From assembly GCA_945869165.1 (NCBI GenBank), contig CAMBNY010000012.1:1-52947 (forward strand): DNA of 52,947 nucleotides, written 5' to 3'. Positions 46,915-52,403 of the stretch are shown one piece after another; position 1 is the first letter of the stretch; each line of letters begins with the position of its first letter. Origin of the DNA: Comamonas sp. lk (lineage in GTDB: Bacteria > Pseudomonadota > Gammaproteobacteria > Burkholderiales > Burkholderiaceae_C). The notes beneath the pieces are model-generated. The model saw only the letters and a program-made list of their open reading frames with translations. It had not been told where the DNA came from and did no database searches. The translations under genes were made by a program, and so were the position numbers.

Positions 46915-48324
<1,410 letters not shown>

Positions 48325-48354: not shown

Positions 48355-48394
48355 GGAGAGATGGCAGAGTGGTCGAATGTACCTGACTCGAAAT
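48355..48394 (+). pseudogene. 5' half of the host tRNA-Ser(CGA), interrupted in the anticodon loop
   Basis: From GGAGAGATGG the sequence follows the acceptor, D-arm and 5' anticodon strand of tRNA-Ser and stops inside the anticodon loop after ACTCGAAAT. The following bases are element DNA and provide no variable arm, T-arm or 3' acceptor strand. The missing 3' half is at 52356-52403; joining the two gives an 88-nt tRNA-Ser(CGA) with fully paired stems. By itself this half cannot yield a tRNA. Confidence 0.93.
48386..48394 (+). other. attL core of the element
   Basis: ACTCGAAAT, the anticodon-loop sequence of tRNA-Ser(CGA), identical to the copy at 52347-52355. On the element side it continues ACAGG, close to the native CAGG of the anticodon stem but with one extra base. 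Confidence 0.85.
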
Positions 48395-48400
48395 ACAGGT

Positions 48401-48437
48401 AAAAACCTCTGTAAGCCCCGTAAATGCTAGGTTTTTT
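48401..48437 (+). terminator. Hairpin with T-run just inside attL
   Basis: AAAAACCT (48401-48408) pairs with AGGTTTTT (48429-48436), 20-nt loop, and six T in a row follow the AGG. It would stop transcription coming from serS or the broken tRNA gene before the integrase. Confidence 0.6.
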
Positions 48438-48450
48438 ATGTTTTTAGCTG

Positions 48451-48478
48451 CTACACAAAGCCTACACAATCAACACAA
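48451..48478 (+). repeat. Left arm-type repeats
   Basis: CTACACAA at 48451-48458, CTACACAA at 48462-48469 and a variant CAACACAA at 48471-48478, all in the same orientation and spaced 9-11 bp apart. They lie 57-84 bp inside the left core and match repeats at the other end, as expected for integrase arm-binding sites. Confidence 0.7.
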
Positions 48479-48514
48479 ACGGTAGTATCATTTTCAGCAC
48501 GAAACGGCTGAAAC

Positions 48515-49705
48515 ATGACCAACACACAAACACTACCGACTCACTCAATTCTTGAGGGAAAACTTCATGTGTTCATGCGTGTTGGGTCGCCGTTTTGGTG
48601 GTGTGGATTTCACTTCGGTGGGAAATATATTCGGGCTTCCACCAAGCAAAAGAATCTTGACGCAGCGAAAGTCATCGCTCAGCAGTGGTACTTTCAGCAA
48701 CGCAATGAAATTGAAAACGGCACAGTTTCATCGGCAAAACATGCGTTCGGAAAGTTAGCTGACGCAGCACTTGAGAACTACCAGAAGATGCTCGTTGATC
48801 GCGGCATGCGTAGTCAGAAAACCTATGATGGCATCGAGAGCATCATGCTCTCTCGAGTCAAAGATTACTTCAAGAAAGTGCCAGTTCAAGCCATCGATAA
48901 CACGATGTGGCACAAGTACAAAGAAGACATGATTACGAAATATCCCAACATCAAGCGTGGGACACTTCATCAATACAAAAATGCGATCCGTGTGGTTTTG
49001 AATTATGCGTACAAGATTGGCTACCTAAAACAGTTACCCATCTTTAAAGATGAGTACACAACGCAGAAAAATGTAAGTAGTCGACCATGGTTCAATTCCG
49101 CTGAGTACTCAAAACTTCACCGTACCATTGACGCACACGCTAAGCGACTTCAGAAAATAGATAAGCGTCAATACGATCATGCTTTAGAGTTGTATGACTT
49201 TGTGATCTTCGGCGCAAATACGGGTATGCGTATCGGCGAGCTCCGCAACTGTAAAGTCTCTGATGTCAAGATCAAGAAAGAAAAACTCACGGGCAAGGAG
49301 ATACTGATCGTCAGCAACATTGATGGCAAGCGCGGCGAAGGGACTTGTCAGAGTTTTTATGGCGCAGTTGCTGCTTATCGGCGAATCATCAAACGGCGAA
49401 AAATTCGCTACCCATCAAAGTGTAATGAAAAGTTGTTTTTGATTCATCACCGTGAGATGTTCAATGTAATACTGAAAAAATCAAAACTAAAGTTCACAAA
49501 ATCAACACCACCGATTAAGCGTGACTTTGTTTCGCTACGAGCGACTTACATTTGCTTTAGATTGCTAAATGGGGTGCCGATCTATGAGATTGCGAATAAC
49601 TGCCGAACTTCTGTCGCGGTGATTCAAGAACACTATGCGAAACCACTTGGTGGCATGTTGATGAAGAACATCAACAGAACGAACATTGAGGGCTGGGATT
49701 ATTAG
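48515..49705 (+). CDS. Tyrosine integrase of the element
   Basis: A 396-residue site-specific recombinase: a beta-rich N-terminal arm-binding segment (about 12-70, with FWWCGFHFGGKYIRASTK), a SAM-like core-binding domain (about 75-185) and a catalytic domain. Catalytic residues that can be read: R239 (TGMRIGEL), K272 (DGKRGEG), R342 (VSLRATY) and the nucleophile Y374 (QEHYAKP). The usual His of the HxxR box is Val339 and the last His is replaced by Thr365, a variation seen in some integrases related to SXT/phage types. Codon use and GC are unlike the flanks. It should catalyse integration into and excision from tRNA-Ser. Confidence 0.9.
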   Translation: MTNTQTLPTHSILEGKLHVFMRVGSPFWWCGFHFGGKYIRASTKQKNLDAAKVIAQQWYFQQRNEIENGTVSSAKHAFGKLADAALENYQKMLVDRGMRSQKTYDGIESIMLSRVKDYFKKVPVQAIDNTMWHKYKEDMITKYPNIKRGTLHQYKNAIRVVLNYAYKIGYLKQLPIFKDEYTTQKNVSSRPWFNSAEYSKLHRTIDAHAKRLQKIDKRQYDHALELYDFVIFGANTGMRIGELRNCKVSDVKIKKEKLTGKEILIVSNIDGKRGEGTCQSFYGAVAAYRRIIKRRKIRYPSKCNEKLFLIHHREMFNVILKKSKLKFTKSTPPIKRDFVSLRATYICFRLLNGVPIYEIANNCRTSVAVIQEHYAKPLGGMLMKNINRTNIEGWDY

Positions 49706-49727
49706 CGCATCTCACGCTGTAGAGACA

Positions 49728-49747
49728 GTCCATTCTTTGCGATGGAC
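49728..49747 (-). terminator. Hairpin between integrase and the element tRNA
   Basis: GTCCAT / ATGGAC, 6-bp stem with 8-nt loop. On the minus strand the tRNA 3' end is followed first by TTTTT and then by this hairpin, so it probably marks the end of the tRNA transcript. The stem is short; low confidence. Confidence 0.35.
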
Positions 49748-49758
49748 AGGGGAAAAAG

Positions 49759-49846
49759 TGGCGGAGAAGGTGGGATTCGAACCCACGGTACCTTGCGGTA
49801 CGCTTGATTTCGAGTCAAGTACATTCGACCACTCTGCCACTTCTCC
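49759..49846 (-). tRNA. tRNA-Ser (anticodon CGA) carried by the element
   Basis: A complete 88-nt serine tRNA with encoded CCA on the minus strand: acceptor GGAGAAG / CTTCTCC, anticodon stem CTTGA / TCAAG around the loop CTCGAAA (anticodon CGA), long variable arm, and T-arm GTGGGTTCGAATCCCAC. Compared with the host tRNA rebuilt from its two halves, it differs at six positions, which fall into three base pairs (acceptor pairs 6 and 7, one anticodon stem pair) that all stay Watson-Crick. This argues for selection on function. It can read UCG and replace the tRNA broken by integration. Confidence 0.96.
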
Positions 49847-50027
49847 GTCGAGCATATTGTAGCGTGTTCGTTGGATCTTTCTTGGCTAGTGATCGATGCT
49901 GTAATCGACCGATTTGGCAATGAACTTAGCGAAATTTCGCTTAAATCGCCCTAAATATATTAGTATGTTAGGCGTGCTTTTTGCCTCAAGCGTCTCTTAA
50001 CAAGACGCTCATCTCAGACGAAAAGTG
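49847..50027. other. Intergenic region upstream of the element tRNA
   Basis: 181 bp with no gene. It holds a perfect 14-bp palindrome AGCGAAATTTCGCT (49928-49941), an AT-rich TACTAATATA on the minus strand that could serve as the tRNA promoter -10 region, and a hairpin AGCGTCT-7-AGACGCT just before the recombinase 3' end. The stretch from 49847 to 49918 loosely resembles the 74-bp repeats at 50665 and 52093 (shared GTCG start and CTAGTGAT), but too weakly to be called a copy. Confidence 0.5.
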
Positions 50028-50627
50028 TCAGAGCAACTCAACAGCACTACGCATGATGTTGGGATTCACATCAATGTATTTCTGTGTGACTGCCATTGAT
50101 GAATGCCCAACCAGTTCCATCAACACACGAACAGACACGCCTTTGTTAGCCAAGTTCGTAATGAACCCACGACGCCCACTATGTGAACTCGCTCCATCAA
50201 TTCCCACTCTCGCATAAAGCGTTGTGAAGAATTGCGCCATAGTATTTGCCGAAAATCCACGATGTGGATTTTTCTGATTCGTGAACAATGCTCGTGTCGT
50301 GTCTGTCAATGTCACAGCAAGCAAATCTTTCAACTTGAAGCGTGAACACAGATAGCTGTGAAGTTCTTCTTGAATCTTCTCTGACAAGATCACCGTCCGC
50401 CCCTTGCTACCCTTCGTCTGTTCTGCCCTCAGATAAACAGATTCACGAATCTTGCCCTCACTCGTCAACACATCGCACAATCTGAGCGCAGCGACTTCAC
50501 CAACTCGCATCCCACAATTCGTAGTCATCAGAAACATCGCACGATTGCGAGTGGGATGTTTGTGCGCTGCGATGTAGAGCAATACACGACGCACATCTTT
50601 CTCAGTCAGAACTTTCGCTTGAGCCAT
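50028..50627 (-). CDS. Catalytic-domain-only tyrosine recombinase
   Basis: A 199-residue recombinase with the complete catalytic set R41 (CGMRVGEV), K75 (TKGSKGRT), H149 and R152 (SSHSGRRGF), H175 (LVGHSS) and Y184 (TQKYIDV). It lacks the SAM-like core-binding domain found in XerC/D or phage integrases and starts almost at the catalytic fold. The ATG at 50627 is preferred because GAGG lies about 7 bp upstream; an ATG 10 codons further upstream is open. It is transcribed opposite to the main integrase and sits beside one of the 74-bp repeats, which could be its recombination sites. Confidence 0.88.
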   Translation of the reverse strand: MAQAKVLTEKDVRRVLLYIAAHKHPTRNRAMFLMTTNCGMRVGEVAALRLCDVLTSEGKIRESVYLRAEQTKGSKGRTVILSEKIQEELHSYLCSRFKLKDLLAVTLTDTTRALFTNQKNPHRGFSANTMAQFFTTLYARVGIDGASSHSGRRGFITNLANKGVSVRVLMELVGHSSMAVTQKYIDVNPNIMRSAVELL

Positions 50628-50664
50628 CAAATACCTCGTTCTGAGCGTGTGATTCACAATCCCA

Positions 50665-50738
50665 ACTCAGTCGCCAACATTCAGCGTCAGCTTGATCCGC
50701 TTGCTTCTAGTGATGTTGTGAAGCGATTGACGAGTTGA
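50665..50738 (+). repeat. 74-bp imperfect direct repeat, copy A
   Basis: Runs from ACTCAGTCGCC to GACGAGTTGA and matches copy B (52093-52166) without gaps at about 62 of 74 positions. It has internal dyad symmetry: CAACTC...GAGTTG at the outer ends, CAACAT...ATGTTG inside. It lies 38 bp upstream of the short recombinase gene. The ends resemble, but do not satisfy, the integron attC consensus. Confidence 0.8.
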
Positions 50739-50757
50739 TTCTTGCGATGGACCTAAA

Positions 50758-51222
50758 TCAGCTGTTCAATCTATCTGTAGCTGATTTCAATCCACCCTTA
50801 GCTTCAACCAAAACCCCAGCTTTACCCAATCCAAACGCTGGCATATTTGCGTAGACATTTTCGTAAGCACCTTGACCAACTTTGTAAGTCTCGTGCCAAA
50901 TGCCAACACTACCATCTGTGCCAACAGCTTTGTTGAATGCTTGCCACGCTGGCAAATGCGCTGAATCTTTGCTCTTTGCGTAATCAATGAGTTGCTCCAT
51001 TGAACGCCAGTATTGAACCAAAATGATCGTTCGGGAAAACCACATCTCGTGGTGAATGAATCCCAAATCAGGTTTTGTATAAAGCTCCGTCAACATCTTG
51101 GGCATCGCATTTAGCACAGGCAAATACTTGTGAACTGCCAATGGCTTGTTGATCCGCATCCCAATTAGGAAGACAACGAAATCGCCATCCATTCGTGCTG
51201 TCATTCGGTCTTTGTAAATCAT
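50758..51222 (-). CDS. DUF4188-like protein
   Basis: A 154-residue protein. RMTARMDGDFVVFLIGMRINKPLAVHKYLPVLNAMPKML followed by HHEMWFSRTIILVQYWRSMEQLIDYAKSKDSAHLPAWQAF matches the monooxygenase-like dimeric alpha/beta barrel described as DUF4188; the aromatic and His residues would line a pocket. Members are often linked to aldoxime or haem-type chemistry, but the activity here is unknown. The gene has AT-rich composition and is cargo of the element. The start at 51222 has AGGAGG 5-6 bp upstream. Confidence 0.78.
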   Translation of the reverse strand: MIYKDRMTARMDGDFVVFLIGMRINKPLAVHKYLPVLNAMPKMLTELYTKPDLGFIHHEMWFSRTIILVQYWRSMEQLIDYAKSKDSAHLPAWQAFNKAVGTDGSVGIWHETYKVGQGAYENVYANMPAFGLGKAGVLVEAKGGLKSATDRLNS

Positions 51223-51361
51223 ATGTCCTCCTTTTGAGATACCAACATTACTACATTTAGAAACCTAGCTTAGATAACCTTAATACCTCAAACATCCTTC
51301 TAGACCCCAAACTTTATTCAAAAGTTTTGAGAATCTAATCCTTGCTCAAAAATTAAGCAGG

Positions 51362-51577
51362 TTGCATTGGGGCGGCTTAGTCAATGCAGAGATGAAAGAT
51401 TTGATGCTGTCGCATGCATTCAATTGGGCAAAGCGAGTTTGGTTTCATATTGGCATTGACAATATACGCTCTCAAAAGGCAATGGAGAAAATTGGTGGAA
51501 AGCTGTCTCACACAGCACCCAGAACTTTGAATGGAACCCCAGTGATGCATTGCTATTACTACATCGATGCTGATTGA
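51362..51577 (+). pseudogene. C-terminal half of a GNAT acetyltransferase
   Basis: 71 codons corresponding to the second half of a RimJ/RimL-type N-acetyltransferase: HWGGLVNAEMKDLMLSHAF, VWFHIGIDNIRSQKAMEKIG (acetyl-CoA region ending in the S-x-x-A-x-x-K-I-G helix) and a terminal beta strand. Full enzymes have 170-190 residues. The upstream 130 bp are open in part but lack the R/Q-x-x-G-x-G/A loop, so the gene has lost its 5' half. Only a TTG could start it. Probably a relic of cargo. Confidence 0.75.
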
Positions 51578-51582
51578 TGTGC

Positions 51583-51972
51583 TTAGATTTGATCTGCATT
51601 CAATCGGTTCATAGCGTAAGCAACAGCACCCACAACCAAGCAAATAACCGCCACTTTGTCGGCAATCACGACCCTATTGACTTGTTCGTTGAAACTTCCA
51701 ACAGCTGCAGCCAAATAGAGAAACGAAACCACGCTGGCAAAACCCGCCACCAATGCAGCAAGTTGCAAGGTGGGCAAGAATGCAGCAGCAATCAAAAAAG
51801 CACCTAACAAGCCAAAGAGCACAGCTCTGTGGCGCATCAATATTTCCAAGTTGGGATCTTCAATGGCAATGCCATAAAGCATCTGCAATCGGTTGGCACT
51901 CAAAACACCTGACAATGGCAAGAGATGAATGATGCCCACAATCAGCAACATGGCTGGAAGAATAAAACGCAT
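51583..51972 (-). CDS. Small four-helix membrane protein
   Basis: A 129-residue protein with four hydrophobic segments: ILPAMLLIVGIIHLLPLSGVL, AVLFGLLGAFLIAAAFLPTLQLAALVAGF (two helices) and VAVICLVVGAVAYAM, with a short loop containing MLYGIAIEDPNLEILMRHRA. The pattern matches a family of small inner-membrane proteins without known function, sometimes misannotated as phosphopantetheine adenylyltransferase. It ends 5 bp from the acetyltransferase relic. Cargo of the element. Confidence 0.72.
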   Translation of the reverse strand: MRFILPAMLLIVGIIHLLPLSGVLSANRLQMLYGIAIEDPNLEILMRHRAVLFGLLGAFLIAAAFLPTLQLAALVAGFASVVSFLYLAAAVGSFNEQVNRVVIADKVAVICLVVGAVAYAMNRLNADQI

Positions 51973-52092
51973 TCTTTGCTCCTTGATATTTTGCTGATGA
52001 ATATACAGAAATTAAACGGTCACTGACACCTGTAAAGCTCCCCCTCAAATCCCCCACGCCAGTCTCGCTATAATTTGCGACTCGGCGCTTTA

Positions 52093-52166
52093 GCTTAGTC
52101 GCCAGCATTCAGCTACAACTTGTCCCACTTGCTTCTAGTGATGTCTTCAAGCGATTGACGAGTTGA
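52093..52166 (+). repeat. 74-bp imperfect direct repeat, copy B
   Basis: GCTTAGTCGCCAGCATTCAG... to GACGAGTTGA, same length and orientation as copy A. The internal palindrome is weaker here (outer CAACTC partner lost). Copies A and B bracket the DUF4188, acetyltransferase relic and membrane protein genes. Confidence 0.8.
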
Positions 52167-52218
52167 CCTGTTCCAAATTGAACTGACTCGTGCGACTGAA
52201 CCAAGTCTGAAATTTGTC

Positions 52219-52242
52219 GTCTAACTATACTTTTATAGTTAA
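52219..52242. repeat. AT-rich inverted repeat near attR
   Basis: TAACTATA-CTTT-TATAGTTA, a perfect 8-bp dyad with 4-nt spacer, in a region with no gene. It could bind a recombination directionality factor or a regulator; no direct evidence. Confidence 0.5.
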
Positions 52243-52270
52243 GTATGGCAAAATTTCAGCGAATATAGTC

Positions 52271-52289
52271 TTACACAATCGCTACACAA
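52271..52289 (+). repeat. Right arm-type repeats
   Basis: TTACACAA (52271-52278) and CTACACAA (52282-52289), same orientation and 11-bp period as the left set, 58-76 bp inside the right core. TACACAATC is identical at both ends of the element. Confidence 0.7.
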
Positions 52290-52346
52290 AAAATGTCTGC
52301 TGCGCGGCGAGTTAATGAATTCGGGGGCTGTGACACATGCTCCATT

Positions 52347-52355
52347 ACTCGAAAT
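52347..52355 (+). other. attR core of the element
   Basis: ACTCGAAAT, identical to the attL core. It is followed immediately by the host tRNA 3' half; the bases before it (CTCCATT) are element DNA and do not restore the 5' strand of the anticodon stem. Confidence 0.85.
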
Positions 52356-52403
52356 CAGGCGTACCGCAAGGTACCGTGGGTTCGAATCCCACTCTCTCCG
52401 CCA
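52356..52403 (+). pseudogene. 3' half of the host tRNA-Ser(CGA)
   Basis: CAGG (3' anticodon strand), long variable arm CGTACCGCAAGGTACCG, T-arm GTGGGTTCGAATCCCAC and acceptor strand TCTCTCC plus GCCA. It complements the 5' half at 48355-48394 base for base. Without a 5' half it is not a gene. Confidence 0.93.

Follow-up and report, generated by a model that had tools for sequence, protein, structure and literature searches.

A contig of Comamonas sp. lk, referred to here as the window (contig 12, 52,947 bases, of a 2.64-Mb draft genome in 81 contigs that is 84% complete), carries an integrative element that splits the gene for tRNA-Ser(CGA) in its anticodon loop and rebuilds it at neither end. 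Directly behind the integrase gene of this element lies a second, complete tRNA-Ser(CGA) gene. We propose that the element is a small integrative island that breaks the host tRNA gene and compensates for the damage in trans through the tRNA it carries as cargo, a reading to which we give a probability of roughly 0.88; the step of trans rescue taken by itself appears very likely. The argument turns on the following features of the window:

47005..48324, plus strand: serS (seryl-tRNA synthetase), the host gene directly upstream of the target tRNA gene (Pfam PF00587 and PF02403)
48355..48394, plus strand: 5' half of the host tRNA-Ser(CGA), on the attL side
48386..48394, plus strand: attL crossover core ACTCGAAAT, the longest string common to both junctions
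48515..49705, plus strand: tyrosine integrase of 396 amino acids (PF13102; phrog_1 and phrog_216 integrase; 175 homologous proteins)
49759..49846, minus strand: complete cargo tRNA-Ser(CGA), opposite in orientation to the host halves and containing the core ACTCGAAAT (ARAGORN; Rfam tRNA match of 61.4 bits)
49856..49861, minus strand: possible -10 box TACAAT, 9 nt before the cargo tRNA (found by eye; putative promoter)
52347..52355, plus strand: attR crossover core ACTCGAAAT (core comparison of both junctions)
52356..52403, plus strand: 3' half of the host tRNA-Ser(CGA) (sequence comparison and joining of the halves)

The 5' half starts 31 bases past the serS stop codon and ends in the 9-bp core ACTCGAAAT, which recurs immediately before the 3' half. 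From core to core the element measures 3,961 bases, with a GC content of 0.447 as compared with 0.597 in the part of the window that precedes it. When the two halves are joined, they give an 88-nt tRNA-Ser(CGA) in which all seven acceptor-stem and all five anticodon-stem pairs are intact; ARAGORN finds no tRNA in either of the window's two junction regions alone. An earlier inspection of this DNA (the sequence-only reading) had placed the break in the anticodon loop, with no tRNA restored at either junction, and joining the halves and running ARAGORN confirm this.

The cargo tRNA-Ser(CGA) is the sole tRNA that ARAGORN finds in the 52,947 bases. Of its 88 positions, six are unlike the joined host tRNA (6, 7, 29, 43, 78 and 79); these are the two sides of pairs 6-79, 7-78 and 29-43 and are paired in both versions, just as the sequence-only reading had it when it described three compensated stem pairs; a 34-base stretch is identical in host and cargo tRNA. 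Its further claim, that the element carries a full copy able to stand in for the broken gene, likewise holds. Among 29 tRNA matches typed genome-wide, tRNA-Ser(CGA) occurs only in the element, the other serine tRNAs being UGA, GCU and GGA. A -10-like box, TAGAAT, is seen by eye at the same distance before the cargo tRNA in three related elements (those of genomes G399, G400 and G401, introduced below). The acceptor versions GGAGAAG and GGAGAGA have swapped host and cargo roles between the window and G400 and G401, so neither of them is peculiar to the element.

The arrangement recurs elsewhere. Scanning genome contigs with the integrase yielded four loci:

L032: G399, a Comamonadaceae metagenome-assembled genome (MAG)
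L033: G400, a Burkholderiales MAG
L034: G401, Limnohabitans sp. Rim11, whose record is not marked as a MAG
L035: G402, a Comamonadaceae MAG

A tRNA-Ser(CGA) 5' half lies about 130 bases before the start of the integrase gene in all four loci, and an intact tRNA-Ser(CGA) lies at the 3' end of that gene, again in all four, on the strand opposite to the integrase in L032-L034. Each of the five genomes, including that of the window, contains one intact tRNA-Ser(CGA); a second one, which the sequence-only reading had named as what would speak against it, was found in none of them. Both host halves were located in two of the four genomes, where they bound elements of 12.9 kb (G401) and 11.0 kb (G400), and in each of these the joined halves give a perfect tRNA. 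The shared cores are 9 bp long in the window, 11 bp in G400 and 12 bp in G401. Cargo other than the integrase, the tRNA and a small recombinase varies among the elements. We considered whether the cargo tRNAs had been changed to evade the integrase and rejected this, because the cargo keeps the full core in all four Ser elements of the standard layout, unlike the Leu cargo of the distant relatives described below.

Two further loci are of interest beside these. In G423 (L149, 2562-6015), serS is followed by a 5' half and, 160 bases on, by an intact tRNA-Ser(CGA) of like orientation. A gene farther along L149 encodes a protein with 46% identity to a G401 element protein; this is perhaps another island, or a decayed one, whose tRNA took over. 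In G415:C62 (L066), of the same genus as the window, the serS-linked host tRNA-Ser(CGA) is 98% identical to the window's cargo tRNA, a likeness hinting at a host origin of cargo tRNAs in a genome with 7% contamination and a second copy.

Did the two halves ever form one gene? The cargo tRNA was searched in 120 relatives at a threshold of E 1e-12, and 81 of them match, 76 with a single match. In 24 of 29 further loci (L066-L094), serS is followed by an intact tRNA-Ser(CGA) 34-80 bases on and on the same strand; the remaining five comprise four without a visible serS and one (L078) with a broken half in between. Eight of the 29 (L080-L087), all of the same genus, are identical to the joined halves at 88 of 88 positions, and in five of these eight serS is 96-99% identical. 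These uninterrupted serS-tRNA loci, eight of them identical to the joined halves, imply that the halves were once contiguous, and the sequence-only reading's expectation of a contiguous gene after serS in relatives is thereby answered. Chance can be set aside as an explanation of the split gene, given the same arrangement in other genomes and the uninterrupted host gene in relatives.

We envision a scenario whereby the tyrosine integrase recombines the anticodon loop of the tRNA-Ser(CGA) gene next to serS with an attP site whose only share of that tRNA is the short core ACTCGAAAT. Insertion destroys the tRNA gene, as the broken halves show, because attP lacks the rest of the tRNA, and the cargo tRNA-Ser(CGA) directly behind the integrase, presumably expressed and charged, would compensate in trans. 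Integrase and putative rescuing tRNA are conserved together as the module of a family of islands from freshwater Burkholderiales, and distant integrase relatives apply the same plan to tRNA-Leu genes. Probably, the island behaves as in tRNA-dependent lysogeny, on elements without recognised phage genes.

Several observations weigh against this proposal or limit its reach. No 3' host half turned up in G399, where the contig ends, or in G402, and the intact tRNA of G402 is linked to serS rather than being internal cargo. The integrase is rare: sweeps with the integrase alignment, counting the own genome where it was drawn, detected it in 1 of 399 family genomes (threshold 1e-60), 2 of 103 of the genus (1e-30), 3 of 90 of the genus of G401 (1e-30), 1 of 399 of the order (1e-40) and 6 of 398 of the phylum (1e-40). 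The predicted attP junction has no match in viral contigs. A second tRNA-Ser(CGA) could sit in the missing part of the 84%-complete draft, and we infer expression, charging and need of the cargo tRNA, as well as mobility of the island, from sequence. Furthermore, 39 of the 120 relatives give no match at 1e-12, and in 20 of these, searched again at 1e-4, no full tRNA-Ser(CGA) was found; five of the 20 are near-complete drafts from the genus of the window. Assembly gaps are the likely reason for its absence from those drafts (the contig of G428 stops within the tRNA, 35 bases in), and it is also possible that tRNA-Ser(CGA) is dispensable in those relatives. tRNA-Ser(UGA) may decode UCG through wobble, so that with tRNA-Ser(UGA) present the rescue may be helpful and not essential. 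Of the 350 UCN codons in 39 long window open reading frames (ORFs) outside the element, 154 are UCG; these ORFs, chosen greedily, amount to 13,417 codons.

Two statements of the sequence-only reading have to be adjusted accordingly. Its suggestion that UCG decoding has come to depend on the cargo tRNA is unproven, given that tRNA-Ser(UGA) is present and that none of the five near-complete drafts searched again has a full tRNA-Ser(CGA). Its notion that the element is costly to lose is tenable for partial loss only, since an exact excision by way of the two 9-bp cores would give back an intact host gene.

Could the internal tRNA have a different meaning? It might serve another purpose, such as codon supply for the island or escape from anticodon nucleases, its match to the broken gene being incidental. 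Both roles have been proposed for phage tRNAs (PMC10264068; PMC10865867). We nevertheless consider this improbable, because the cargo isoacceptor equals that of the broken gene in every case in which a half was found, and because a single tRNA adjoins the integrase, with no array. Slightly less probable still is a conventional island that restores its target, with the restored end decayed and the internal tRNA left over from a previous insertion or from one in tandem. Islands do occur in tandem within tRNA genes (PMC4383910), and a full tRNA-Met just upstream of some distant integrase relatives resembles such an island; the junctions in the window, however, are clean, the joined host halves pair perfectly, and the cargo is inverted at the same place in the window and three other genomes, whereas a leftover from a direct tandem would be co-oriented.

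An assembly artefact, arising from the joining of two strains or repeats, has to be weighed because all but one of the integrase-bearing genomes are metagenome or draft assemblies and because the 34-base stretch identical in host and cargo tRNA could favour misjoining. We judge it very improbable: the same layout is found in four genomes, including Limnohabitans sp. Rim11, the contigs are about 0.9-1.0 Mb long in two of the genomes, and the window's two 5' halves differ at 3 positions, which makes misjoining unlikely. The least probable alternative by our estimate is that both host halves are transcribed and joined, in the manner of archaeal split tRNA genes. The halves are split within the anticodon loop and still pair perfectly, as this would demand, yet the intact copy makes joining needless and bacteria are not known to trans-splice tRNA halves.

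Distant relatives of the integrase are found at other tRNA genes. In G1316 (100% complete), a tRNA-Leu(UAG) 3' half precedes such an integrase and an intact tRNA-Leu(UAG) follows it; the 5' half lies on another contig, the joined halves give tRNA-Leu(UAG), and no other intact tRNA-Leu(UAG) was found in this genome. In G1218 (100% complete), a tRNA-Leu(CAA) 5' half stands before the integrase genes and an intact tRNA-Leu(CAA) behind them. The 3' half is on the same contig and strand, 111,153 bases from the 5' half; joined at TCAAAA, the halves give tRNA-Leu(CAA), of which no other intact copy was found in G1218. This 111-kb span may be one element or several and would be a case of the same strategy at the size of an integrative and conjugative element. 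It contains at least two such integrases, two of them in tandem, together with a cargo Leu tRNA whose acceptor stem is different (L133, G1218:C46 8655-12003, and L155). A third genome, G452, has an integrase contig (L095/L134) with a Leu(UAG) cargo tRNA and a 3' half. We did not accept it as proof, because a second intact tRNA-Leu(UAG) lies on another contig, the integrase contig is perhaps contamination, and the 5' half was not found.

Wherever a half was found, then, the broken gene and the cargo agree in isoacceptor: Ser(CGA) in 5 of 5 genomes, Leu(UAG) in G1316 and G452, and Leu(CAA) in G1218. A different picture is presented by loci with a tRNA-Met upstream of the integrase (L118, L119, L120 and L123, from two plus one genomes, and the plasmid locus L127); no distal tRNA piece was found at these loci, and the placement of the tRNA-Met is as would be expected of a conventional island. 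No tRNA lies near the integrase in the plasmid loci L125, L126 and L128. In an integrase tree of 21 rows, the Ser, Leu(UAG) and Leu(CAA) types form separate, supported groups; its deep forks would fit one origin or several.

Is trans rescue a new strategy? It has in fact been described in actinophages. The tRNA-dependent lysogeny of Fionnbharth, cluster L and other actinophages was tested genetically, and it combines a short core, the absence of a rebuilt tRNA and the need for a phage tRNA of the same isotype in lysogeny (Guerrero-Bustamante and Hatfull, mBio 2024, PMC10865867). The parallels to the window element are a tyrosine-family integrase, an attB site overlapping a host tRNA gene, a short core without a functional tRNA at attL or attR, and an element tRNA of the disrupted isotype. 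Unlike the actinophages, which are temperate phages with genetic proof, the elements considered here are Pseudomonadota islands that measure 4 to 13 kb, or 111 kb in the case of one distant relative, and are known from sequence; they carry the tRNA directly behind the integrase, target tRNA-Ser(CGA) and have no recognised phage structural genes.

Further precedents are the Rhizobium phage vTRX32-1 group (PMC8631192) and Sinorhizobium prophages (PMC11476347), in which a prophage breaks tRNA-Leu, in the latter tRNA-Leu(UAG), and carries a full tRNA-Leu. The core region GATTTAGGTT of these rhizobial phages is the same as that of the distant integrase relatives in G1316 and G452. The rhizobial phage tRNA-Leu is without the att motif, whereas the cargo tRNA-Ser of the island keeps the whole core. 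Prophage Lj965 of Lactobacillus johnsonii, according to PMC10865867, also leaves its tRNA unrestored and encodes a cognate one, but it is a phage and from Firmicutes. Islander-type islands share a tyrosine integrase and an attB site in the tRNA anticodon loop, and they restore the gene at one junction (PMC4383910), which the window element does at neither; the filters used to find them, by which a full tRNA and a fragment must be co-oriented, would pass over the layout of the window. Tycheposons, which are likewise cargo islands of aquatic bacteria with a tyrosine recombinase and a tRNA, start with the tRNA at their border (PMC10872708); here the borders are halves and the complete tRNA is internal. 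In the open-licence literature searched, mostly at listing level, we recognised no description of trans rescue by a non-phage island.

The novelty lies in islands of Pseudomonadota that have a fixed integrase-tRNA module and in which no phage genes were recognised. The rescue of broken tRNA genes in trans would thereby reach beyond phages to such islands, and beyond Actinobacteria to Pseudomonadota, and a single integrase superfamily covers three tRNA targets. The Discussion of PMC10865867 states that prevalence beyond actinophages is in need of study, and for one superfamily our findings offer an answer. They also suggest a search rule, namely an integrase that starts next to a half tRNA and ends next to a complete tRNA of matching isoacceptor; programs that locate islands by a co-oriented, junction-restored tRNA would miss such elements. 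A corollary is that a genome's sole copy of a tRNA gene can come from a mobile element.

The window element does not qualify as a temperate phage by its gene content. It has no structural-gene candidate among its ORFs, and 18 proteins of the G401 and G400 elements, a part of their ORFs, match only PHROGs of unknown function. A tblastn search with the integrase found nothing in 50,697 phage records; viral contigs contain one distant locus, at 38% identity, and eight plasmid records match, all below 60% identity.

Because the cargo tRNA is inverted and keeps the full core, recombination between attL and the cargo core would flip the integrase gene. It is thus possible, although we regard it as rather doubtful, that the integrase segment is an invertible module that flips between the two cores. 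Such core-core recombination would exchange tRNA halves along with turning the integrase gene, and either orientation would leave exactly one intact tRNA and one half. The layout of G402 looks as if a standard segment had been flipped: one contig (L064, G402:C103, 142-2888) has serS, behind it an intact tRNA-Ser(CGA), and then the 3' part of the integrase, oriented towards that tRNA, and another (L065, G402:C94, 9700-10485) has the 5' half with a cargo-like box TACAAT 13 bases before it, followed by the start of the integrase, without serS. On each of these contigs the integrase is interrupted, by visual inspection, close to residue 140, and GTACC flanks the break on both sides, much as an insertion sequence would leave it. 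The same picture could arise through misassembly at the 40 bases repeated in the identical 5' halves, or through ordinary homologous recombination. ARAGORN scores all turned versions as tRNAs; the predicted mismatched stem pairs in the turned tRNA number two in the window, one in each of the other three standard elements and none in G402. If inversion occurs, the tRNA would be both replacement gene and recombination site, and whether a flipped tRNA is functional would depend on the paired changes in its stems. The small recombinase could act as a partner in flipping or excision.

The remaining features of the window element are as follows:

48452..48468, plus strand: putative arm-type integrase sites, TACACA at 48452 and 48463
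50028..50657, minus strand: second, small tyrosine recombinase of 209 amino acids, catalytic domain only (PF00589)
50758..51222, minus strand: cargo ORF of 154 amino acids, PF13826 (Monooxy_af470-like; Pfam)
51362..51577, plus strand: cargo ORF of 71 amino acids, apparently a fragment from the end of a GNAT acetyltransferase (Pfam match under the cut-off)
51583..51972, minus strand: cargo ORF of 129 amino acids, without a Pfam match
52272..52288, plus strand: putative right-end arm-type sites, TACACA at 52272 and 52283 (motif comparison)

The integrase matches phrog_1 with E 7.7e-20, and its profile, searched by sequence against the PDB, gave no matches. Residues R239, R342 and Y374, to which we ascribe a catalytic role, are invariant in the integrase alignment (a 99-residue region). 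The TACACA pair stands at 98 and 109 from the tRNA start in all five left ends compared; near the right end, G400 and G401 each have one exact TACACA, and scattered copies occur elsewhere too. We read these repeats as probable arm-type sites flanking a short core.

A small recombinase of about 200 amino acids is present in four of the five Ser(CGA) elements (50028-50657 in the window; L063 14703-15302; L062 6654-7262; L061 6851-7459), the homologues being 72% (G399), 50% (G400) and 49% (G401) identical to that of the window; it was not seen on either of the two G402 contigs. Its length is presumably comparable to that of FimB-type invertases, and it matches a tyrosine-type DNA invertase model weakly, far below the cut-off.

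As for the variable cargo, the G401 and G400 elements have in common two adjoining proteins of about 460 and 560 amino acids (L061 9502-13173 and L062 7893-10944), neither of which has a significant Pfam or PADLOC match; a search with a 463-residue protein of the G401 element gave nothing significant (best E 0.48). The shorter protein of the pair contains GDSGGFQ, a motif that we take to be reminiscent of tRNA-guanine transglycosylase-like enzymes. Another protein of G400 weakly resembles a rolling-circle Rep (PF23343, E 0.0065, below the cut-off). In G399, a protein of the candidate anti-phage defence family PDC-S18 (L063 17173-18135; PADLOC, E 5.4e-88) lies 5.4-6.4 kb into the stretch that starts at the broken tRNA; beyond this match, PADLOC gave one weak Cas5-like match. 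In the window, 73-nt direct repeats at 50666-50738 and 52094-52166, 85% identical and without a copy in the other elements compared, flank the three small cargo ORFs, and the pair looks like the edges of a cassette.

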